Part shown: positions 3,839 to 14,415 of the stretch, piece by piece | Layout of the letters: each line of letters begins with the position of its first letter | Numbering within the stretch: position 1 is the stretch's first letter | Virus record (IMG/VR): IMGVR_UViG_3300011113_000336 | Location: 1 to 24,424 of that record | Length of the DNA: 24,424 nucleotides | Direction: 5' to 3' (one strand) | Origin: a virus | Notes under the pieces: model-generated | Databases searched by the model: none | What the model saw: the letters and a program-made list of their open reading frames with translations, nothing else | Told to the model about the DNA's origin: nothing | Program-made: the position numbers and the translations under genes

Positions 3839-5583
3839 GATTCTTTGGGTTCTTGTATGTATTATTTTTATTACCAATATTTGTTTTTTCTCAAAACATA
3901 AGTGCCCCATCATCCACCAATTTTTCTCAAAATTTATCTAATCAAAATGCGAGTGGATTTTCAATATCAAATTTTAACACAAGTGCAACTTTACTTATTA
4001 CAATTGGTTTAGTAAATCCACCGATTGGTACTACTCTTTCGTTAACAACAACAACAGGATTATCTTTAAGCACAGGTTATTCTTCTTGGTCAAATTTTAC
4101 AAGAATTAGTTTTACGGGTATTCAATCAAATATTAACAATGCTTTAAGTTCGTTAAAATTAAACACAGGTTCTTTACCGGGTAATGTTTACATTGCGGTA
4201 ACTGCAACCGTAAATCCAACGGGATATTATTATTTACCAACAAACGGACACTTTTACAGACCAATGTCTTGGCCCGCGGGTAATTCAGGAACAAGTAATT
4301 CGATATATGAAAATATAAAAACATTATCAACACAACAAACATTTAAAGGACAAACAGGGTATTTGTTAACAATCACGTCTCAAGATGAACAAAATTTTGT
4401 TCAATCAAACGTACCTGGTAATAATATTTTATTTTCATTGACAGATGTTGGTCAAGAGGGTGTTTGGAGAATAGATGCTGGACCAGAAAACGGTACAATA
4501 ATAAAAACATCAAATTCAGGTGGAAATGTTGCGGGCAGATATAACAATTGGTGTAGTGGTGAACCAAACAATTGGGGTAGTGGTGAAAACTATGCCGTTA
4601 CTAAATGGGGGGGAGGTAATTGTTGGAACGATTTTGGTCCACCCGCGTCATCTTTTCCTGGCTCAATAAGTGGTTATGTTGTTGAATTTGGAACGTGGTC
4701 AGACCCCGCAAATCAAAATTTCACAGATTTTTTTACAGGATTCGTTACACATCAAATTACTTGTACACCAGCACAAGAACCATCAAAACCCATCGCAGTA
4801 AACGGTAGTAGAACGGGTAGTGGTACTGTGACAATATCAGCAACAGTTGGTCCCGGTCAAACTGTTGATTGGTACAATAATTTAACAGGGGGTAACCCAA
4901 TATTAGTTGGTAATACCACTTTTACGACACCAGTTATTTCTCAAACAACAAAATATTATGCTCAGTCAAGAAACACATCAACGGGTTGTATTAGTTCAAC
5001 AAGAACAGAAGTTACCGCAACGGTTTCAATTTCAGAAACAATAAGCGGGACAATAACTATTCCCAATAATATAACAAACAGACCACAATTAAAATTTTAT
5101 CTTGTTGAAAATAATTTAGAAACATTGATACAGACCATAAACGTTAATTCAAATGGTTCATATACTTTGAACCCAACAAAACACAATTCAACATACAAAA
5201 TAGTTCCAACGTTTTTTGATTCATTAACAAATAACGATTTTAATTTATTATTTAACGAATCTAAAAATGAAAACACACCAAATCAATTACCTGTTGGTTT
5301 AGTTTTAAATAATGGAAAAAAAATGGTGTCGGGTGATATTAATAATGATGGAAAAATAACAATTGCCGATGCGTATCTATTAGCGGCAAGAATTTCAGGA
5401 ATGGTCTATTTTAATGAAACGTTATGGTATTATGAAAACGATTACAATTTATTGAGTATTAGTAATTTTAATTCAACACCCACTTATCAACAATTTATGG
5501 TTAATTTTGGAACGTCTAATCTTGTTCTAAATTTAAAATATATTATTAAGGGAGACTGTGATTTGTCAATATCCTCTTACTGA
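3835..5583 (+). CDS. Exported adhesin with C-type lectin, Ig-like and dockerin-like domains
   Basis: The product has 582 residues. A signal peptide covers 1-20 (FVFS-Q). Residues ~40-128 form a Ser/Thr-rich beta domain. Residues ~130-287 are a C-type lectin domain: the EPN motif at 243-245 and WND at 264-266 are the canonical calcium and sugar ligands (EPN is the mannose-type form), with cysteines at 240 and 263. Residues ~316-397 look like an Ig-like domain common in Bacteroidota adhesins (VDWYNNLTGG, KYYAQS). A dockerin-like calcium loop follows at 501-512 (D-x-N-x-D-G-x-I-x-x-x-D) with helix AYLLAARI; only one clear repeat is visible, while classical dockerins have two. There is no T9SS tail. 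The start overlaps the preceding stop as ATGA. It presumably binds glycans and, via the dockerin-like loop, a cohesin partner. Confidence 0.8.
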   Translation: MRFFGFLYVLFLLPIFVFSQNISAPSSTNFSQNLSNQNASGFSISNFNTSATLLITIGLVNPPIGTTLSLTTTTGLSLSTGYSSWSNFTRISFTGIQSNINNALSSLKLNTGSLPGNVYIAVTATVNPTGYYYLPTNGHFYRPMSWPAGNSGTSNSIYENIKTLSTQQTFKGQTGYLLTITSQDEQNFVQSNVPGNNILFSLTDVGQEGVWRIDAGPENGTIIKTSNSGGNVAGRYNNWCSGEPNNWGSGENYAVTKWGGGNCWNDFGPPASSFPGSISGYVVEFGTWSDPANQNFTDFFTGFVTHQITCTPAQEPSKPIAVNGSRTGSGTVTISATVGPGQTVDWYNNLTGGNPILVGNTTFTTPVISQTTKYYAQSRNTSTGCISSTRTEVTATVSISETISGTITIPNNITNRPQLKFYLVENNLETLIQTINVNSNGSYTLNPTKHNSTYKIVPTFFDSLTNNDFNLLFNESKNENTPNQLPVGLVLNNGKKMVSGDINNDGKITIADAYLLAARISGMVYFNETLWYYENDYNLLSISNFNSTPTYQQFMVNFGTSNLVLNLKYIIKGDCDLSISSY

Positions 5584-5915
5584 AAATTTGTGTTAAGTTT
5601 ATTGTACAAATTTAATATTTGTTCACAATATTCATATTCTTCTTTGTCCTCAAAGAATGGTAAAATATCCCTAATTAAAACAAAACACTCTTTTTTGTTG
5701 AATTTTAATTCAGTTTCCCACTGAAGTCCATTAATTTTTGCGGATAGTAATAATATAACATTTTCTTTATCTTTTCTATTTATACTTTTAAAAGATAATA
5801 CGACATTTTTATATATTTCTTCTTTGTTTTTTAAATAGAATTCAGGGAAGTCTTCATACGATTCGTCAATTTTTAGTTTCTTAATTATCGTGTCCTTTGG
5901 TTTGTCTTGATACAT
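5577..5915 (-). CDS. Hypothetical protein
   Basis: The product has 112 residues from ATG 5915. The frame extends upstream to a TTG at 5936, but that codon lies inside the promoter -7 box, so 5915 is preferred. The protein is charged and soluble, with predicted alternating helices and strands and the block LLLSAKINGLQWETELKFNK followed by an acidic helix (EDKEEYEYCEQILNLYNKL). I recognise no family. It has its own host-type promoter and is transcribed toward the adhesin gene, overlapping its 3' end by 7 bases. Its placement downstream of the RNA-repair operon suggests an early-expressed accessory gene. Confidence 0.65.
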   Translation of the reverse strand: MYQDKPKDTIIKKLKIDESYEDFPEFYLKNKEEIYKNVVLSFKSINRKDKENVILLLSAKINGLQWETELKFNKKECFVLIRDILPFFEDKEEYEYCEQILNLYNKLNTNFQ

Positions 5916-5933
5916 TGCACTATCTGTTTTAAT

Positions 5934-5964
5934 CAAATATACGAATCATAAGACTCATATCAAA
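5934..5964 (-). promoter_or_regulatory. Bacteroidota-type promoter of the 5577-5915 gene
   Basis: On the minus strand, TTTG (5964-5961), a 19-base spacer and TATATTTG (5941-5934) fit the Bacteroidota sigma-A consensus. It lies in the 64-base gap between the cREC stop and ATG 5915. Confidence 0.75.
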
Positions 5965-5979
5965 ATTTTTTTATTAACA

Positions 5980-6438
5980 TTATTGGGTATGGTCTATTTT
6001 AACCCTAACACAAGACTGTTCTTGTCTTTCTCTCATTAAAAAATTATTGATATACCCCATAATGTTAGATGCCCCAACTGGGTTCGCTGAATGTGTATAA
6101 ACCTGTGGAAAGTTAATCGGGGTATTCCTTTTCTCCATAGATGACATCTTTTCTCTATTTTGAGAAAAATTATCGTAGTAGTGATTTATTAACCATTTAG
6201 CACAATCATATCCTGTTTTTTCTTTAATATTCTCATAATTTAATTGTCCGTTTGGGTAAACATTTGAATAGAATTCCTCCATCGCACTATCACCTAAATC
6301 ATGGTCAAGAGATATTATGTCAATATTCTCTAATCCAATTTTTGTTACTGTTTTTACAAAATCATCGTAATTTCTTACAACAATCCAATCTGTATTAATT
6401 GGTGTACGGATATCGTCTAAATAAATTTTAACTTTCAT
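5980..6438 (-). CDS. Cyclic-phosphate-processing receiver-domain protein (cREC)
   Basis: The product has 152 residues. It has the layout of the cREC family, a receiver-like domain predicted to act on 2',3'-cyclic phosphates in RNA-repair contexts: IYLDDIRTP (acidic pair D8-D9), then ISLDHDLGD (D45-H46-D47), then GYDCAKWL, then HSANPVGASNI (116-126), the HSxNPxG signature that sets this family apart from response regulators. The start overlaps the ligase stop by 11 bases, so the two are translationally coupled. The neighbours (kinase and ligase) fit RNA end-healing: this protein could remove the cyclic or 3' phosphate that blocks ligation. The family call is strong; the biochemical role is a prediction from the family literature. 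Confidence 0.8.
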   Translation of the reverse strand: MKVKIYLDDIRTPINTDWIVVRNYDDFVKTVTKIGLENIDIISLDHDLGDSAMEEFYSNVYPNGQLNYENIKEKTGYDCAKWLINHYYDNFSQNREKMSSMEKRNTPINFPQVYTHSANPVGASNIMGYINNFLMRERQEQSCVRVKIDHTQ

Positions 6439-7495
6439 CTTTTTTAAATGGTTTAGAATATGTTGGTCGTATTAATTTCCAAATTTTGTTTGAGTAGTCT
6501 TTACCATCTAACATACTAAATAATAAATATGGGTACTTATGTTTTTTAGCGTGTTCGGCAAATATCGTTCTATTTTCACAGTTTGGACTTCTATTAATTA
6601 CTTTAAAAATCCACTTGTATTCTTCTTCTATTTTTTCGTATTGGTTTATTAATTCATTTCTAGTGTCTCTAACCCAATTATAAAATTCATCAGGCACCTT
6701 TTCAAGTAACTCATCAAATGGTTTATCTTCTTTAAGATATTCCCAAATGTCTCTACTTGATACATTAGTAAGGATTCTGTGTAATCGAACATACTCTTCA
6801 AACTTTATTTTCATCCTAAAATTTGATGGGTAAAATCTTACAACAAAACCCTCACTGTTCGGAGTGTTTAATTTTTTGTAAGTATCAAAAGTATCGGTGT
6901 TGAATGTTACCATAGTACTCTCAACAATATCCTCTTCCTTGATTCCTGACGAATGAAAAATACTACGAGCGGTGTACCAATTTAACTCGATTTCGGGAGT
7001 AGTTACAGATAAAAATGTAATCTTATCACAACCATAGTTTACAACAATCCTATTTTCGGGATATATGATTTCACACAAGTAAGTGACATCTGTCATAAAC
7101 TTATCTAAATCATATCTTGATTTTAAAATCTCAAAACCTCGAATAGATTGTTCTGAGGTAAAAGAACCTCTTGTTGTCATAATCCATTCACCATCATAAA
7201 ATAATAAAATACCCAAAGAACCATCCATTTTGTCTTGGATGTAGGCATATTCACTATCCCACGGAATCAAATTTTTGTCTATGACTTCTTCGTAATTAAA
7301 AAACTTACCAAATGGTCGAGCAACTATTTCCCCTTTTGAATTAGTAATAAGTCCACGACATTGCGTAGTAATATCATCCCACAAAGATTCATATTGTACT
7401 CTTGGTGTGTAGTTCCAAATGTACAAATCTTTTGTTGGGTGGGTTTGTTTCATTAACAAACCATCTTCGTGGTATTTTTCAAGTATTTCTATCAT
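6428..7495 (-). CDS. rnlA: T4 Rnl1-like RNA ligase
   Basis: The product has 355 residues, close to the T4 Rnl1 length of 374. It joins 5'-phosphate and 3'-OH RNA ends, as in repair of cleaved tRNA. Nucleotidyltransferase motifs appear in order: motif I K-M-D-G-S with the adenylated lysine at ~89, motif III-like CEIIYPENRI (~141-150), motif IV EGFVVR (~215-220) and motif V KIKFEEYVRLH (~229-239), the last close to the KIKSxxYVxLH form of Rnl1. An Rnl1-type N-terminal CRGLI and RPFGKFFN block is also present. A helical C-terminal domain follows (~240-355), as in Rnl1, where it binds tRNA. The start overlaps the kinase stop as ATGA and the stop overlaps the cREC start. Confidence 0.88.
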   Translation of the reverse strand: MIEILEKYHEDGLLMKQTHPTKDLYIWNYTPRVQYESLWDDITTQCRGLITNSKGEIVARPFGKFFNYEEVIDKNLIPWDSEYAYIQDKMDGSLGILLFYDGEWIMTTRGSFTSEQSIRGFEILKSRYDLDKFMTDVTYLCEIIYPENRIVVNYGCDKITFLSVTTPEIELNWYTARSIFHSSGIKEEDIVESTMVTFNTDTFDTYKKLNTPNSEGFVVRFYPSNFRMKIKFEEYVRLHRILTNVSSRDIWEYLKEDKPFDELLEKVPDEFYNWVRDTRNELINQYEKIEEEYKWIFKVINRSPNCENRTIFAEHAKKHKYPYLLFSMLDGKDYSNKIWKLIRPTYSKPFKKDES

Positions 7496-7875
7496 ATAGA
7501 AAATTCAAAACGTTTCTTCATTATTTCTAATCTATCTTCTGGTACTCCGTGTAAATTCACACCCCCATGTCGATTTTCAACAATAATGGAATGTACCCTG
7601 TAACCAAATTGATTAGCCATTTCATAGTAAGAATCCATTTCCCATTTTTGAGTGAAAGTATTAGATACGATGATAAGTGGTTTTTCCAACAACATCCAAT
7701 CCGAAACTTGATTCCTACACCATTCGTGTGCAATTTTTAGTTTTGACCCGTCAAAGTGGTATTCACCGTCTTTCATAAAGTACATATCCGCTTCGATATG
7801 TTCACCACCTAAAAGTTTCGCTAACGTTGATTTACCTGACCCTGGTAATCCTCTTAAAAGTAATAGTTCTTTCAT
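7492..7875 (-). CDS. P-loop 5' polynucleotide kinase (N4BP2/AAA_33-like)
   Basis: The product has 127 residues from ATG 7875. The Walker A motif is GLPGSGKST (9-17). Downstream are EADMYF, AHEWCRNQV, an IIVSNTFTQKWEM block (compare VDNTNTxxWEM of NEDD4-binding-protein-2-like kinases) and a C-terminal EDRLEIMKKRF helix. It would phosphorylate 5'-OH RNA ends for the adjacent ligase. Unlike T4 Pnkp (PseT) it has no 3'-phosphatase half, and its length allows only the kinase domain. The frame stays open to a GTG at 7968, but that extension would translate through a terminator hairpin, so the internal ATG is preferred. It is the first gene of the kinase-ligase-cREC operon. Confidence 0.82.
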   Translation of the reverse strand: MKELLLLRGLPGSGKSTLAKLLGGEHIEADMYFMKDGEYHFDGSKLKIAHEWCRNQVSDWMLLEKPLIIVSNTFTQKWEMDSYYEMANQFGYRVHSIIVENRHGGVNLHGVPEDRLEIMKKRFEFSI

Positions 7876-7910: not shown

Positions 7911-7940
7911 ATAAAAAACCCCCAACGGAGAGTTGGGGGT
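7911..7940 (-). terminator. Rho-independent terminator of clpC
   Basis: On the minus strand, a perfect 9-bp stem ACCCCCAAC / GTTGGGGGT with a 5-base loop is followed by a T-run (TTTTTAT). It lies 107 bases past the clpC stop and just before the kinase promoter box, so it separates the two transcription units. Confidence 0.85.
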
Positions 7941-7942
7941 CA

Positions 7943-8046: not shown

Positions 8047-10065
8047 TTAGCTTCTTTTTTTAATTATTTTTATTTCACCGTCTTTAAACTTCAGTAAAAT
8101 GTTTTGATTTTCAGACACCTCACCTCTTAGTATTTTTTCACTTAAAAAGTCCTCACACAAGTTTTGTATGATTCTCTTTACTGGTCTAGCCCCGAAATCT
8201 TCTTGGGTATTCAATTCAGAAATTCTATCAACAATCGATGAATCAAATGAAACTTTATAATTTTTTAGTGTGAGTCTTTTTTTAAGTTTCTCTAATTCAA
8301 GTTCGATTATTTTGTGGATACTTTCTTTTACGAGAGGATTAAAACTAATGATATCATCCACCCGATTTAAAAATTCAGGATTAAAGTATTGCTTCAAAGA
8401 TTTTTGAACAATTAATTTTTTTACTTCCTCATTTTGAGTATTACTAAAAGATGTTTCAAATCCGAGACCCTTACCAAAATCGGAAACTTTTTTTGCTCCG
8501 ATGTTAGAGGTCATGATGATTATTGCATTTGAAAAACTAACTTTCCTTCCAAAAGAATCTGTAAGGTGTCCCTCATCTAAAATTTGTAATAGTATATTGA
8601 ACACGTCTTTATGGGCCTTTTCTATCTCATCAAATAAAACCACAGAAAAGGGGTTGTGTTTAATTTTTTCAGTCAACTGACCACCTTCATCATATCCAAC
8701 ATACCCAGGAGGTGCACCAATCAATTTTGCAACATTGTGTTTTTCCATGTATTCACTCATATCAACCCGAATAACTTTATTTGGGTCATTAAACAATATC
8801 TCTGCAATTGATTTTGCTAAGTAAGTTTTACCAACACCTGTTGACCCTAAAAAGATAAAGGAACCAATTGGTTTATTGGTGTCTTTAATTCCAACTCTGT
8901 TTCTTCGTATTGATTTTGATATAATTGAGATTGCCTCATCTTGACCAATAACTTTAGATTTCAATTTTTCTTCTAAATTTAAAAGATTATCAGTTTCAAC
9001 AACATCAACTTTAGATATAGGAACACCGACAATTTGGGATACCATTTCATATACATCATCTATTGAAATTGGTATTTTACTATCTTTTTGTGTTTCCAAC
9101 CATTTTTCTTTTTCTTCTTGTAGTTTTGATAAAACCTTTTTTTCTTCATCTCTTAACTTAGCCGCTTGTTCATATTGTTGATTTTTTACTACCTGAATCT
9201 TCCTCATTTTTATATCATCGGACTCTTTTTTAAGTTTTTCAATTACTTCAGGTATTTTAGAGTTTATTTTTTTATCGGAACCAAGTTCATCTAAAACATC
9301 AATTGCTTTGTCAGGAAATTGTCTATCTGTTATGTACTTTGAAGACAAGGTAACGATTGTAGATAAAACATCATCACTATAATGAACTTTATGAAAATCT
9401 TGATATGAATTTCTAAGATTTTTTAAAATCTGAACTGTTTCATCGGCCGATGGTTCCTTTAAAACTATTTTTTGAAATCTTCGTACAAGTGCACCGTCTT
9501 TTTCAATGTTTTTTTTGTATTCATCAAAAGTGGTTGCACCAATACATTGAATCTCACCTCTGGCCAATGCGGGTTTTAATATATTGGCGACATCCATTGA
9601 ACCACTTGCATTACCGGCACCGACCATCGTATGCATTTCATCAATAAACAATATTACATTTGGTTCATTTTGTAACTCATTTAAGATTGCTTTAATCCTT
9701 TCTTCAAACTGACCCCTGTACTTTGTTCCCGCAACTAAAGACGTTAAATCCAACGATAATAATTTTTTATCCAATAGATTACTTGGACAATCTCCATTGA
9801 CTATTTGTAATGCTAATTTTTCAATCAACGCCGATTTACCAACACCAGCATCACCAACAATTATTGCATTATTTTTTTTCTTTCGGGCTAAAATTTGGGC
9901 GATTCTTTTGACTTCTTTTTCTCTACCAACAACGGGGTCAATTTTACCTTCTTCCGCTAATTTATTTAAGTCCCTTGAAAAATTATCAAGAACCGGTGTA
10001 TTTGAACTTTTTTTTGTTTTTTTGGAACTCGATGGGTTCCCATCTTCGAAAAAATCTACTGACAT
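8047..10065 (-). CDS. clpC: ClpC-like AAA+ unfoldase lacking the N-domain
   Basis: The product has 672 residues, against roughly 800-850 in host ClpC, because the ~150-residue Clp-N double repeat is missing; the protein begins with a Ser/Lys-rich tail. D1: Walker A GDAGVGKS (71-78), pore loop KYRG (~115-118), Walker B FIDE (140-143), arginine finger RRF (~195-197). A UVR-like coiled segment (NQQYEQAAKLRDEE, ~295-308) typical of ClpC follows. D2: Walker A GSTGVGKT (407-414), pore GYVG (454-457), Walker B LFDE (477-480) and NPEFLNR (562-568). An LGF tripeptide at 534-536 occupies the place of the ClpP-docking VGF/IGF loop. It should unfold substrates with ATP and may feed host ClpP. ATG 10065 is chosen; a TTG at 10083 falls inside the promoter. 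Confidence 0.88.
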   Translation of the reverse strand: MSVDFFEDGNPSSSKKTKKSSNTPVLDNFSRDLNKLAEEGKIDPVVGREKEVKRIAQILARKKKNNAIIVGDAGVGKSALIEKLALQIVNGDCPSNLLDKKLLSLDLTSLVAGTKYRGQFEERIKAILNELQNEPNVILFIDEMHTMVGAGNASGSMDVANILKPALARGEIQCIGATTFDEYKKNIEKDGALVRRFQKIVLKEPSADETVQILKNLRNSYQDFHKVHYSDDVLSTIVTLSSKYITDRQFPDKAIDVLDELGSDKKINSKIPEVIEKLKKESDDIKMRKIQVVKNQQYEQAAKLRDEEKKVLSKLQEEKEKWLETQKDSKIPISIDDVYEMVSQIVGVPISKVDVVETDNLLNLEEKLKSKVIGQDEAISIISKSIRRNRVGIKDTNKPIGSFIFLGSTGVGKTYLAKSIAEILFNDPNKVIRVDMSEYMEKHNVAKLIGAPPGYVGYDEGGQLTEKIKHNPFSVVLFDEIEKAHKDVFNILLQILDEGHLTDSFGRKVSFSNAIIIMTSNIGAKKVSDFGKGLGFETSFSNTQNEEVKKLIVQKSLKQYFNPEFLNRVDDIISFNPLVKESIHKIIELELEKLKKRLTLKNYKVSFDSSIVDRISELNTQEDFGARPVKRIIQNLCEDFLSEKILRGEVSENQNILLKFKDGEIKIIKKRS

Positions 10066-10080
10066 ATTTTGTTTTTTATA

Positions 10081-10112
10081 CAAATATAAGGGATTTCATG
10101 ATAAAAAACAAA
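10081..10112 (-). promoter_or_regulatory. Bacteroidota-type promoter of clpC
   Basis: On the minus strand, TTTG (10112-10109), a 20-base spacer and TATATTTG (10088-10081) match the Bacteroidota sigma-A consensus TTTG-N19/20-TAnnTTTG. The -33 element is itself part of a second TATATTTG copy (10116-10109). The ATG lies 15 bases downstream of the -7 box, giving a very short leader. Confidence 0.75.
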
Positions 10113-10160: not shown

Positions 10161-10216
10161 GTTTGTGTAATTTGGAATCTTTTTTGTATAAACATATTCA
10201 AATAAAAAAATATAAT

Positions 10217-10588
10217 ATGTTAACACTTTACAGAGACCCATTCAAAGACGTATTAGATACGTTTTTTGAAAAACCATCTCTATTTAGGGATGGTCAGAGT
10301 AAAATCGTTACAAGAGATGATGAATATCAAATCCACCTCTCTGTACCGGGATTGACAAAAAATGATTTGACAATTTCGGTAAAAGATGGTTTGATTTCCA
10401 TTTCTTATAAAAAGGAAGAAACGGATGACAAAAATTATTCGTTTGTCAATTCGTTTAAAAAAACTTATTTGATACCAGAAGATGTATCTGAAAAGGATAT
10501 TTCGGGAAAGGTTGAGAATGGTATTTTACAAATAACTCTTCCGAAGAATAAGAAAAAATCATCGGAACGATTTATCTCTTTAAATTAA
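10217..10588 (+). CDS. Hsp20/alpha-crystallin small heat-shock protein
   Basis: The product has 123 residues from ATG 10217; an upstream TTG at 10163 in the same frame is unlikely. The alpha-crystallin domain spans ~28-110: DEYQIHLSVPGLTKNDLTIS, DGLISISYKK, FKKTYLIPEDV and the family signature GKVENGILQITLPK. A short tail contains FISLN, an I-x-L form of the IxI oligomerisation motif. Small heat-shock proteins bind unfolding proteins without ATP; T4-like cyanophages also carry hsp20. The gene is divergent from clpC and followed at once by a strong terminator, so it is monocistronic. Pairing a holdase with a Clp unfoldase suggests joint protein quality control during virion production. Confidence 0.92.
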   Translation: MLTLYRDPFKDVLDTFFEKPSLFRDGQSKIVTRDDEYQIHLSVPGLTKNDLTISVKDGLISISYKKEETDDKNYSFVNSFKKTYLIPEDVSEKDISGKVENGILQITLPKNKKKSSERFISLN

Positions 10589-10618: not shown

Positions 10619-10624
10619 ATTTGA

Positions 10625-10634
10625 TATTTATTAT
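10625..10634 (+). promoter_or_regulatory. Candidate late-promoter element (SLOG-KTSC-NTase operon)
   Basis: TATTTATTAT lies 7 bases after the hsp20 terminator and 22 bases before ATG 10657. The same element recurs before other cassette-leading genes (12047, 12071, 20910, 21666). Its place straight after a terminator argues that transcription restarts here. Confidence 0.45.
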
Positions 10635-10656
10635 GTATATTACTAAACAAAAAAAA

Positions 10657-11004
10657 ATGAAAGTAATAATTGCTGGTGGTCGTGATTTTAACAATTACGA
10701 ACTTTTAAAAGAAAGGTGTGATTATTTTTTACAAAATCAAACCGACATAGAAATTGTAAGTGGTAATGCTAACGGTGCAGATAAATTGGGTGAACAATAT
10801 GCCATTGAAAAAAATTATTCATTAAAAATTTTTAAAGCGGAATGGGATAAATATGGTAAATCAGCGGGAATGATTAGAAATACGGAAATGTCAAATTACG
10901 GTGACACTTTGATTGCATTTTGGGATGGAAAAAGTAAAGGAACGTCACACATGATAAATGAATCAAGAAAAAAAAATCTAAAAGTTAGAGTAATAAATTA
11001 TTAA
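10657..11004 (+). CDS. YspA/DUF2493-type SLOG-fold protein
   Basis: The product has 115 residues. It matches the DUF2493 (YspA, cpYpsA-related) branch of the SLOG superfamily: IIAGGRDF (4-11), EIVSGNANGADKLGEQYA (~32-49), AEWDKYGKSAGMIRNTEM (61-78) and IAFWDGKSKGTSHMI (~86-100). SLOG folds bind nucleotides or nucleotide-derived ligands, and members occur in conflict systems and phages; the DUF2493 branch has no settled activity. In-frame TTG 10621 and ATG 10633 are possible starts, but both overlap the terminator or promoter element, so 10657 is chosen. The next gene starts one base after its stop. Confidence 0.85.
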   Translation: MKVIIAGGRDFNNYELLKERCDYFLQNQTDIEIVSGNANGADKLGEQYAIEKNYSLKIFKAEWDKYGKSAGMIRNTEMSNYGDTLIAFWDGKSKGTSHMINESRKKNLKVRVINY

Positions 11005-11005
11005 T

Positions 11006-11251
11006 ATGGGAATTACATCAGAAAAAATTGAAGGAAATATTATTGAAGTTCAAATTTCTTCTTCAAACCTTAAAAGTGCCAAATATAATACCGAGGAAAA
11101 AAATCTTTTGGTTGAATTTAATAATGGCTCTATTTATGAATATGAGGACGTACCATGGGAAACTTTTGTAAAATTACGAATGGCAGAATCTCAAGGTAAA
11201 TATTTTAATTCAAGTATATCAAAAACATATAAATACAAGAAAATAACATGA
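11006..11251 (+). CDS. KTSC-domain protein
   Basis: The product has 81 residues, essentially one KTSC domain (named after a C-terminal extension of some lysyl-tRNA synthetases). Visible features are SSNLKSAKYN, LLVEFNNGSIYEYEDVP with the central Y-x-Y, and AESQGKYFNSSISKTYKYKKI. RNA binding has been suggested for the family but its function is unsettled. Spacing is one base from the SLOG gene, with a 4-base ATGA overlap with the nucleotidyltransferase, so the three form a translationally coupled unit. Confidence 0.85.
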   Translation: MGITSEKIEGNIIEVQISSSNLKSAKYNTEEKNLLVEFNNGSIYEYEDVPWETFVKLRMAESQGKYFNSSISKTYKYKKIT

Positions 11252-12018
11252 GTTTGATTGATGAACTTTTTGAAAAATCCGATAAGAAAATCGTAAAATC
11301 ATTTACGCCAAAGAGTTCGTTATGTAATAAAATTTTTAATTTAGAGGGTGAACCGTCTTTAAAAGAAGAAGTAAGAAGTAAACTATTGGAAGTAACCAAT
11401 GAATTTTTAGAATATTTAGGTATAGAATTTTTTGTTTATGATGTTCATTTAACAGGTTCTTTGGCCAATTATAATTGGTCAACATATTCCGATTTAGATA
11501 TACACATAATAGTCGATTTAGATGAATTTAGTAATGGGAAGGAAAAAACAACAACTTATAATGAAATTGTTAGAGAGTTTTTTGAATTGAAAAAGAAATT
11601 ATGGTCAACAACAAATGATATTAAAATAAAGGGCCACGAAGTTGAGTTATATATCGAGGATATCGATGATAAAGGAGTTTCGACTGGTATATATTCCATT
11701 TTAAATAATGATTGGATTAGAAAGCCAGAAAAAAATGAAACAAATATAGATGAAAAAAAAATATTACAAAAAGGTGAAGAGTATGGGAAATTAATTGATG
11801 ATATATTCAATCGTGCAAAAAATGGTGAAAATGTTGTAAAAGAAGTTGATGAGTTAAAAAACAAATTGAAAAGATTTAGACAGTCTGGTTTAGAAAGTGG
11901 TGGAGAGTATTCTTATGAAAATTTAACATTTAAGTTATTAAGAAGAAACGGATTTATTGACAAACTTTTTAAAATAAAAACATACGTTAGAAGTAAAAAA
12001 TTGTCTTTACCACAGTAA
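11248..12018 (+). CDS. Pol-beta-fold (MNT-type) nucleotidyltransferase
   Basis: The product has 256 residues. The catalytic signature is HLTGSLANYNWSTYSDLDIH (~67-86): G70-S71, then D82-x-D84, the metal ligands of the polymerase-beta superfamily. The third carboxylate is probably in HEVELYIED (~130-138). The remaining ~110 residues are mostly helical and charged. Similar stand-alone nucleotidyltransferases occur near structural genes in T4-like marine phages, and their substrate is unknown to me. It overlaps the KTSC gene by 4 bases and is the last gene before the head cassette. Substrate options are an RNA end (tRNA-like), a protein or a small molecule; the sequence does not choose between them. 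Confidence 0.75.
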   Translation: MSLIDELFEKSDKKIVKSFTPKSSLCNKIFNLEGEPSLKEEVRSKLLEVTNEFLEYLGIEFFVYDVHLTGSLANYNWSTYSDLDIHIIVDLDEFSNGKEKTTTYNEIVREFFELKKKLWSTTNDIKIKGHEVELYIEDIDDKGVSTGIYSILNNDWIRKPEKNETNIDEKKILQKGEEYGKLIDDIFNRAKNGENVVKEVDELKNKLKRFRQSGLESGGEYSYENLTFKLLRRNGFIDKLFKIKTYVRSKKLSLPQ

Positions 12019-13121: not shown

Positions 13122-13520
13122 ATGCGTCTTATTTATGTTAACGAAATAGGAACAGACTATAAAGGTCAAAAACAATACGAATTCATATTCAGCTTGTCTG
13201 GCGAAATAAATATGGATGAATGGTATGATGTTCCTGCTTCTTCAACATTCACAACTAAATCCCCAAGTGTTGAATACATAGACCAAGTTGGTCTACTCAA
13301 AGATACGGATATTGTTTTTGAATTGATACAAAATTCTGACTATTTTGGTATTATCGATGCAGTTGACGGTATAGTTGCAATGGCTTGGGAAAAAACAAAT
13401 TTTGATTCAGAAAAAGATAGGTTATTTTTTAGATTTGGAGAAACCTATGAATTTATCACAAATAAATTAAAACAAAGAGGAATAACATTAGAAAATAAAA
13501 AAATAAAATATTATGAATAG
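13122..13520 (+). CDS. Hypothetical structural-cassette protein
   Basis: The product has 132 residues, mixed alpha/beta, soluble and acidic. It starts with MRLIYVNEIGTDYKGQKQYE and has an EWYDVPAS block and aromatic-rich C-terminal helices. No family is recognised. It starts one base after the preceding stop and overlaps the next gene by 8 bases, so it is co-expressed with the head genes. It could be a small virion or assembly protein, but nothing specific supports that beyond position. Confidence 0.65.
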   Translation: MRLIYVNEIGTDYKGQKQYEFIFSLSGEINMDEWYDVPASSTFTTKSPSVEYIDQVGLLKDTDIVFELIQNSDYFGIIDAVDGIVAMAWEKTNFDSEKDRLFFRFGETYEFITNKLKQRGITLENKKIKYYE

Positions 13521-14415
13521 AAAAATAATAATTGAAAAACTTTTAAAAGAAGGGTTTTCAGAAAAAACTCTTGTTAGTTTTAATGATAAACAACTTGTGA
13601 CTTTATCAAAAACAGTTTTAAAAGAAGCTGTGATGATTAAAAAAGACAATGTAAAAGATATTGCGGCAGCTAAAGCGGCTGGTAAAACTATTGAAACTTA
13701 CGAGTCAAAACATAAAGATGTAAATGAAAAGTGGGAAGGTGATGTTAAAGTTAAGAAAACAGGAGAACATGCAGATAAAACTGTATCTGAATTAAAAAAA
13801 GAACTTAATTCTTTAAAAGAAAAAAGTAAAAAATATCAAGACGAAGGTAAAAAAGTACCTAAAAAAATTATAGACCAAGAAGCAGAATTGAAATTTGCTA
13901 TTAGAGCAAAACAAGGGTGGAAGAAAAAAATGAATGAAAATGTTTCCGAAATTGAAGAATGGGTTTTAGATTTAACCGAATCAAAGTATTCTCAATTTAC
14001 ATCAAAAAACGACATCATGAAAATTATAAATGAAAAAATGGAAACGTTTCAACCGATGCCAATGTCAAAAGCAAAAAAAGGTCACAACGGTATTCCTGAG
14101 TTTATGACTTATGATGCAATTGTTGGTAATCAACCGGCTCCATCACCAAATCCATCTCAACCTGATGTACTTCCCGATGCACCACCAAAAGAGAAAGATA
14201 AACCAAAACCAAAAACACCTTATCAACCGGGTCCCGGAGTTGACCCTAAACCTAAAGCAATGGGAATAGGGGAAACGAAGACTTCACCATCACGACCCGA
14301 TGTTAAACCTGTTGCACCACCAAAAGAGAAAGATAAACCAAAACCAAAAACACCTTATCAACCGGGTCCGGGGGTTGACCCTAAACCTAAAGCATTAAGA
14401 GAAAAAAAATATTAG
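13513..14415 (+). CDS. Lys-rich structural-type protein with Pro/Lys repeats
   Basis: The product has 300 residues. The N-terminal half is helical and strongly charged (KTVSELKKELNSLKEKSKKY), consistent with coiled coil. The middle has IEEWVLDLTESKYSQFTS. The C-terminal ~95 residues are disordered and contain two copies of a 27-residue Pro/Lys block (PPKEKDKPKPKTPYQPGPG core). No named family is recognised. A basic, disordered tail next to acidic neighbours could serve electrostatic packing in the prohead, which is inference. It overlaps the previous gene by 8 bases and ends 3 bases before the next. Confidence 0.65.
   Translation: MNRKIIIEKLLKEGFSEKTLVSFNDKQLVTLSKTVLKEAVMIKKDNVKDIAAAKAAGKTIETYESKHKDVNEKWEGDVKVKKTGEHADKTVSELKKELNSLKEKSKKYQDEGKKVPKKIIDQEAELKFAIRAKQGWKKKMNENVSEIEEWVLDLTESKYSQFTSKNDIMKIINEKMETFQPMPMSKAKKGHNGIPEFMTYDAIVGNQPAPSPNPSQPDVLPDAPPKEKDKPKPKTPYQPGPGVDPKPKAMGIGETKTSPSRPDVKPVAPPKEKDKPKPKTPYQPGPGVDPKPKALREKKY
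14179..14394 (+). repeat. 81-bp near-perfect direct repeat inside the Pro/Lys-rich gene
   Basis: Copies lie at 14179-14259 and 14314-14394, separated by 54 bases, and appear to differ at only two positions (near 14234 and 14237 in the first copy). Both are in frame. Confidence 0.88.

Follow-up and report, generated by a model that had tools for sequence, protein, structure and literature searches.

A kinase-ligase-cREC operon of a large tailed phage as a probable component of a split pathway that heals and seals RNA ends

The window analyzed here, the whole 24,424-nucleotide stretch of IMG/VR record IMGVR_UViG_3300011113_000336, is a 24.4-kb piece of a large tailed phage of the Bacteroidota type. 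On its minus strand, from 7875 to 5980, it carries an operon that encodes, in this order, a kinase-only P-loop protein, an Rnl1-like ATP-dependent RNA ligase, and a member of the cyclic-phosphate-processing receiver family, cREC. We consider it probable, at roughly 0.6, that this operon is part of a split pathway for the healing and sealing of RNA ends, in which the phosphatase is MPP1, a calcineurin-type phosphoesterase family, and cREC is an optional helper. An initial annotation of the same DNA had proposed that cREC may replace the phosphatase of T4 PseT; this reading of cREC, tempting as it is, is corrected by related genomes. In every near-complete genome in which the matter can be judged, cREC accompanies a phosphatase.

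Overlapping genes for a kinase, a ligase, and cREC

The kinase, the Rnl1-like ligase, and cREC had been annotated as products of three overlapping genes, which is borne out by the open reading frames (ORFs) and by profile matches far above chance; the overlap amounts to 4 nt between the kinase and ligase genes and to 11 nt between the ligase and cREC genes. The first gene of the operon (7492..7875, minus strand, with its ATG at 7875) encodes the kinase, a protein of 127 residues that matches AAA_33 (2.8e-10) and phrog_2071 (4.1e-36). Since its match to the 295-position Pnkp profile phrog_505 is confined to positions 1-110 (1.1e-7), its earlier description as a P-loop domain alone is confirmed: the chain ends at the end of the Pnkp kinase half, and the HAD phosphatase half is not in the same chain. 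The family profile of the kinase matches 1ly1/1ltq at 5e-4 to 6e-4 and, over positions 4-133, chains named Metallophosphoesterase (4gp7 and others), which we take to be the kinase domain of bacterial Pnkp. P-loop residues G12, G14, and K15 as well as D30 are invariant in this kinase-only family, which is present in 617 phage records.

The ligase gene (6428..7495, minus strand) encodes 355 amino acids matching PF09511 (1.7e-17; 64.4 bits against a cut-off of 28.3) and phrog_562 (1.1e-62). Alignment to T4 Rnl1 (2c5u) revealed KxDGSL, EGxV, and KIKxxxYV, corresponding to motifs I, IV, and V. The T4 RnlA equivalog TIGR02308 was matched with 56.9 bits, far under its cut-off of 242.25, and we therefore refer to the protein as Rnl1-like and not as T4 RnlA.

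The product of the third gene (5980..6438, minus strand), cREC, comprises 152 amino acids and matches PF20274 (6.2e-22; 78.5 bits against a cut-off of 27) and phrog_1479 (1.6e-27). In phages, the family was found in at least 82 records with one query; in Bacteroidota genome loci (L489, L502, and others), cREC is encoded near WYL-domain regulators and calcineurin-type phosphoesterases. The LDD, LDHD, and HSxNPxG motifs reported for the protein in the initial annotation are indeed present, and D8/D9, D45-H46-D47, and H116-S-A-N119-P-x-G122 are invariant or nearly so in 34 aligned sequences. Moreover, D8, D9, R11, P13, D45, D47, G76, H116, and N119 are retained in cRECs with identities as low as 22%.

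Neither single-sequence nor profile searches of the PDB found a solved relative of cREC, and a sequence search of the PDB found none of MPP1 either. The AlphaFold2 model of cREC (pLDDT 95.7) yielded weak matches in a Foldseek comparison with the PDB (best E 0.045), and in VIA the top rows were receivers, with Z up to 9.2 over 96 residues at 2.8 A, to be read against best Z values of 7-8 that are common for unmatched models. These comparisons are support for, but not proof of, a receiver fold. With such a fold, and with neighbors that are highly varied, cREC might be a nonhydrolytic partner, for instance, a receiver-like subunit whose task is to bind the damaged end or to control the ligase. 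We regard this as improbable, considering that D8/D9/D45/D47 and H116/N119 are invariant over the identity range given above and look like an active site, and that the operon encodes no histidine kinase.

Phosphoesterases in phages encoding cREC

A hidden Markov model (HMM) of MPP1 was built from phosphoesterases near cREC in uncultivated phages, and the sample of named phages comprised 15 with the kinase-only protein, nine of them with and six without cREC. In 13 of the 15, the HMM matched a phosphoesterase within a few kb of the kinase and ligase genes (E 6e-22 to 7e-35), and the D, H, and N residues that bind metal are intact in these proteins; one of the remaining two is a partial genome, and the other has an annotated phosphoesterase at the edge of the stretch examined. 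All nine phages combining the kinase-only protein, the ligase, and cREC encode a calcineurin-type phosphoesterase, which in eight cases is an MPP1 adjoining the kinase/ligase genes. Five of the six phages without cREC carry a calcineurin-type phosphoesterase as well, and the count for MPP1 is also 5/6. In the complete phage immuto 3-5A, cREC and MPP1 are encoded near each other.

Overlap of the ligase and cREC genes recurs in unrelated Vequintavirinae, namely, in V5-like, Mydovirus, and Avunavirus phages, and this recurrence supports a functional tie of cREC to the ligase. In the V5-like phage rV5_ev168, the ligase gene (PF09511) overlaps that of cREC (PF20274, 3e-15), Sir2 lies next to cREC, and a kinase-only gene and a calcineurin-type phosphoesterase gene are found alongside. 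Ligase, cREC, and kinase genes are consecutive in Mydovirus KpS8 and in an Avunavirus.

In the group to which the window's phage belongs, phosphoesterases were surveyed in 23 cREC records. Calcineurin-type enzymes were detected in 20 of these, HAD_SAK_2 in 12, and a 2H protein in 2, and stand-alone HAD_PNKP exceeded the cut-off in one record and matched weakly in five more. Of the three records without a calcineurin-type phosphoesterase, two are contigs that belong to the window's phage itself. Of 21 records, 11 have the calcineurin-type gene no farther than 1.3 kb from cREC, where uniform placement would predict 1.0 (P about 3e-10, with kinship among the records ignored). A separate observation concerns G005, a contig of L017, in which a stand-alone HAD_PNKP phosphatase (206783-207556; 9.5e-30) adjoins a separate kinase-only gene, constituting a naturally split Pnkp.

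Close relatives of the ligase are encoded in operons of the type kinase-ligase-cREC or of the types ligase-MPP1-kinase and MPP1-kinase-ligase, but almost never together with both cREC and MPP1. In the window's clade, cREC thus stands at the operon position that belongs to MPP1 in sister phages, as would be expected if cREC replaced the HAD phosphatase of PseT and kinase, ligase, and cREC sufficed for repair. The known part of the genome of the window's phage, about 160 kb, also fits such a replacement, inasmuch as no calcineurin-type, HAD_PNKP, HAD_SAK_2, or 2H gene was found in it. We nevertheless hold replacement to be highly improbable. The kinase-ligase-cREC contigs of at least 230 kb represent two species and are 234 kb (3300031963_000003), 287 kb (a cousin of the window's phage), and 288 kb (3300027816_000051) in length, and all of them encode MPP1 elsewhere, in trans; the 287-kb cousin additionally encodes a HAD_SAK_2 phosphatase. 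MPP1 is present in trans, too, in two contigs whose cREC gene follows the ligase of a kinase-ligase pair at a distance of one gene. In a cousin phage (G012), for example, the kinase (77077-77502), ligase (77502-78572), and cREC (78487-78993) genes are clustered, and MPP1 is encoded at 193474-194130. The named phages argue in the same direction, both through the calcineurin-type phosphoesterase found in 9/9 of those with the kinase-only protein and cREC and through the existence of kinase-only phages that lack cREC and in five of six cases have MPP1.

Nor can the phosphatase "missing" from the window serve as a sign of replacement. The kinase-only family is widespread, with several sampled members lacking cREC, and because the record is a 24-kb fragment, absence from it is uninformative about the phage. 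The known genome is incomplete as well. It is composed of two larger contigs that overlap over 31 kb at 100%, and a syntenic comparison with the 287-kb cousin indicates that about 115 kb are missing, the part in which the cousin holds HAD_SAK_2 and MPP1. A true absence of a phosphatase from this phage was rejected on account of this correspondence.

The genomic surroundings of cREC also bear on a different role, put forward in PMC9503650, in which the substrate of cREC is not an RNA end but ADP-ribose 1''-2'' cyclic phosphate or a host signal derived from cyclic nucleotides or NAD, its adjacency to the ligase reflecting a wider counter-defense set. Sir2 adjoins the ligase, cREC, and kinase genes in V5-like, Mydovirus, and Avunavirus phages, and bacterial cREC loci have WYL regulators nearby in 15/80 cases and Sir2 in 4/80. 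For the phage studied here, we consider this role unlikely, since Sir2 is absent from its known 160 kb as well as from the 287-kb cousin. In its group, just 2 of the 23 cREC records contain Sir2, and the tightest linkage of cREC is to the ligase.

A proposed division of labor and its likely target

Judged by sequence, overlapping genes of the window together encode a kinase-only protein, an Rnl1-like ligase, and cREC, to which related genomes add MPP1. An RNA end-healing step for cREC is favored by the recurrent overlap with the ligase gene, by the co-encoding of MPP1, and by locus L509 of a bacterial genome, in which the MPP1 and cREC genes overlap. We propose that a metal-independent RNase leaves ends with a 2',3'-cyclic phosphate and a 5'-OH. 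cREC would then assist in making the 3' end ready, and the simplest way would be for it to open the cyclic phosphate of the RNA, an activity that we predict with slightly less than even confidence. MPP1, whose gene lies in trans in this clade, would take off the 3' phosphate, a role that appears quite likely in view of its constant co-encoding. The kinase, if it acts as its family suggests, would phosphorylate the 5'-OH, and the ligase would seal the 5'-phosphate/3'-OH nick. More tentatively, we speculate that cREC might be a receiver-fold Asp/His 2',3'-cyclic phosphodiesterase that passes a specific (2' or 3') monophosphate on to MPP1. If true, Pnkp/Rnl1 repair would exist in a four-protein form with one step per protein, and its chemistry would be one that receiver domains have not so far been shown to perform. 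The split pathway envisaged in the initial annotation is thereby retained as far as the kinase/ligase RNA-repair module is concerned, but not with cREC as its phosphatase, given the presence of MPP1 in relatives.

Several points weigh against the pathway as proposed. MPP1 was not seen in the about 160 kb known of the window's phage. In the kinase family, the Arg that would align with the Pnkp DDxR motif is absent, being replaced by F, H, W, or Q in 13 members, and some caution about the acceptor of the kinase is therefore advisable. The calcineurin-type domain of bacterial Pnkp opens cyclic phosphates, and MPP1 might do so too, which would leave cREC another job. Co-occurrence of MPP1 and cREC does not show that they act sequentially, and immuto 3-5A, despite encoding both, has neither a PF09511 ligase nor a kinase match. 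Finally, in the literature that we found, the chemistry of cREC, a widespread phage family, is a prediction.

Regarding the substrate, the known contig of the window's phage contains at least six tRNAs, a transfer-messenger RNA (tmRNA), and a GOLLD RNA, four of the tRNAs being some 8 kb away from the operon; in the cousin, 23 tRNAs adjoin the repair operon. The module likely serves the repair of tRNAs, of the phage and of the host alike, that host RNases have cleaved. From the earlier suggestion that the operon counters host anticodon nucleases, we keep tRNA repair as likely, with phage tRNAs in the vicinity; a nicked tRNA as the target is, however, carried over from T4. The GOLLD RNA (RF02032, 314.5 bits, full length) was located at 13833-14237 (minus strand) of L083, which is contig IMGVR_UViG_3300042914_002952 of the window's phage, and adjoins the phage tmRNA at 13244-13664 (RF00023, 88.5 bits; ARAGORN tag GNVYNNMEIAGILASSKVAVA) and four tRNAs.

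Relation to known systems and genes around the operon

Iyer et al. (2021) named cREC, predicted its role in cyclic-phosphate processing, noted its links to RNA-ligase operons, and had separate HAD or calcineurin-like phosphatases act after cREC opens cyclic ends (PMC7824862). For V5/Mydo-type phages, Iyer et al. (2022) described a sirtuin, a T4-like ligase, cREC, a nucleotide kinase, MazG, and sometimes a calcineurin-like phosphoesterase (PMC9503650). As both the predicted role of cREC and the ligase-cREC-kinase layout of V5/Mydo phages were already published in 2021-2022, the basic idea is not new. In agreement with the operons in PMC7824862, cREC is linked to an RNA ligase here; in extension of that work, MPP1 was found to be the usual partner of the kinase-only/Rnl1-like pair in the sampled phages. 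The operon belongs with the V5/Mydo-type clusters in that its Rnl1-like ligase overlaps cREC and its kinase-only gene is of the same family. It differs from them in the order kinase-ligase-cREC and in the location of MPP1, which in near-complete relatives is far off and not in the operon. No sirtuin was found in the 160 kb known of the incomplete genome of the phage or in the 287-kb cousin.

The combination of a kinase with an Rnl1-like ligase follows the logic of T4 PseT (Pnkp) and Rnl1. In contrast to PseT, no HAD domain is present, and kinase and phosphatase are separate, unrelated proteins; to our knowledge, cREC has no T4 counterpart. Bacterial Pnkp of the C. thermocellum type unites a kinase, a calcineurin-type phosphatase, and a ligase in one chain. 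The same three functions would be assembled here, but from separate genes, with an Rnl1-like ligase and with cREC in addition. Among named phages, the closest ligase is that of Arthrobacter phage Bauer (38.8%), in which the ligase and kinase genes likewise overlap. Unlike the kinase of the window, that of Bauer is fused to a HAD phosphatase (phrog_505 positions 1-295, 5e-94), and neither cREC nor a calcineurin-type phosphoesterase was found in Bauer. The operons of related kinases and ligases either include MPP1 or include cREC, MPP1 then being encoded elsewhere, and in a further arrangement Pnkp is fused; these differences make the contribution of each protein measurable.

Comparison with a near-identical phage revealed a ligase gene of 81.8% DNA identity flanked by kinase and cREC genes of 97.7% and 99.8% identity, respectively. 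Diversifying selection on the ligase was considered and dropped, because the pair shows a dN/dS (ratio of nonsynonymous to synonymous substitution rates) of 0.10 at a dS of about 1.0, for which recombination is the simpler explanation. An exchange of alleles confined to the ligase is therefore likely.

The last gene of the run, a 119-aa ORF following cREC (5577..5936, minus strand), had no family match above the cut-off in the profile libraries; an ORF of 109-119 aa trails cREC in most kinase-ligase-cREC relatives. On the other side of the operon, an intrinsic-terminator-like hairpin with a 10-bp stem and a T run (7917..7941, minus strand) separates the kinase gene from the ClpA/B-like gene upstream of it and probably marks the upstream operon boundary; the terminator scan yielded 5 such sites, compared with 1.0 expected. 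A sigma-70 promoter scan and a search for the TAnnTTTG motif gave counts at chance level, and the occurrence of TATATTTG 15 nt upstream of the kinase start is not significant.

The ClpA/B-like ATPase, with two AAA domains (8047-10083), directly adjoins the repair operon, and a divergent Hsp20 gene (10163-10588) lies beside these genes. Beyond the Clp-like and Hsp20 genes, and divergent from the repair operon, the region from 10621 to 12018 encodes a YspA-type SLOG protein, a KTSC-domain protein, and a nucleotidyltransferase-like protein (PF01909, weak).
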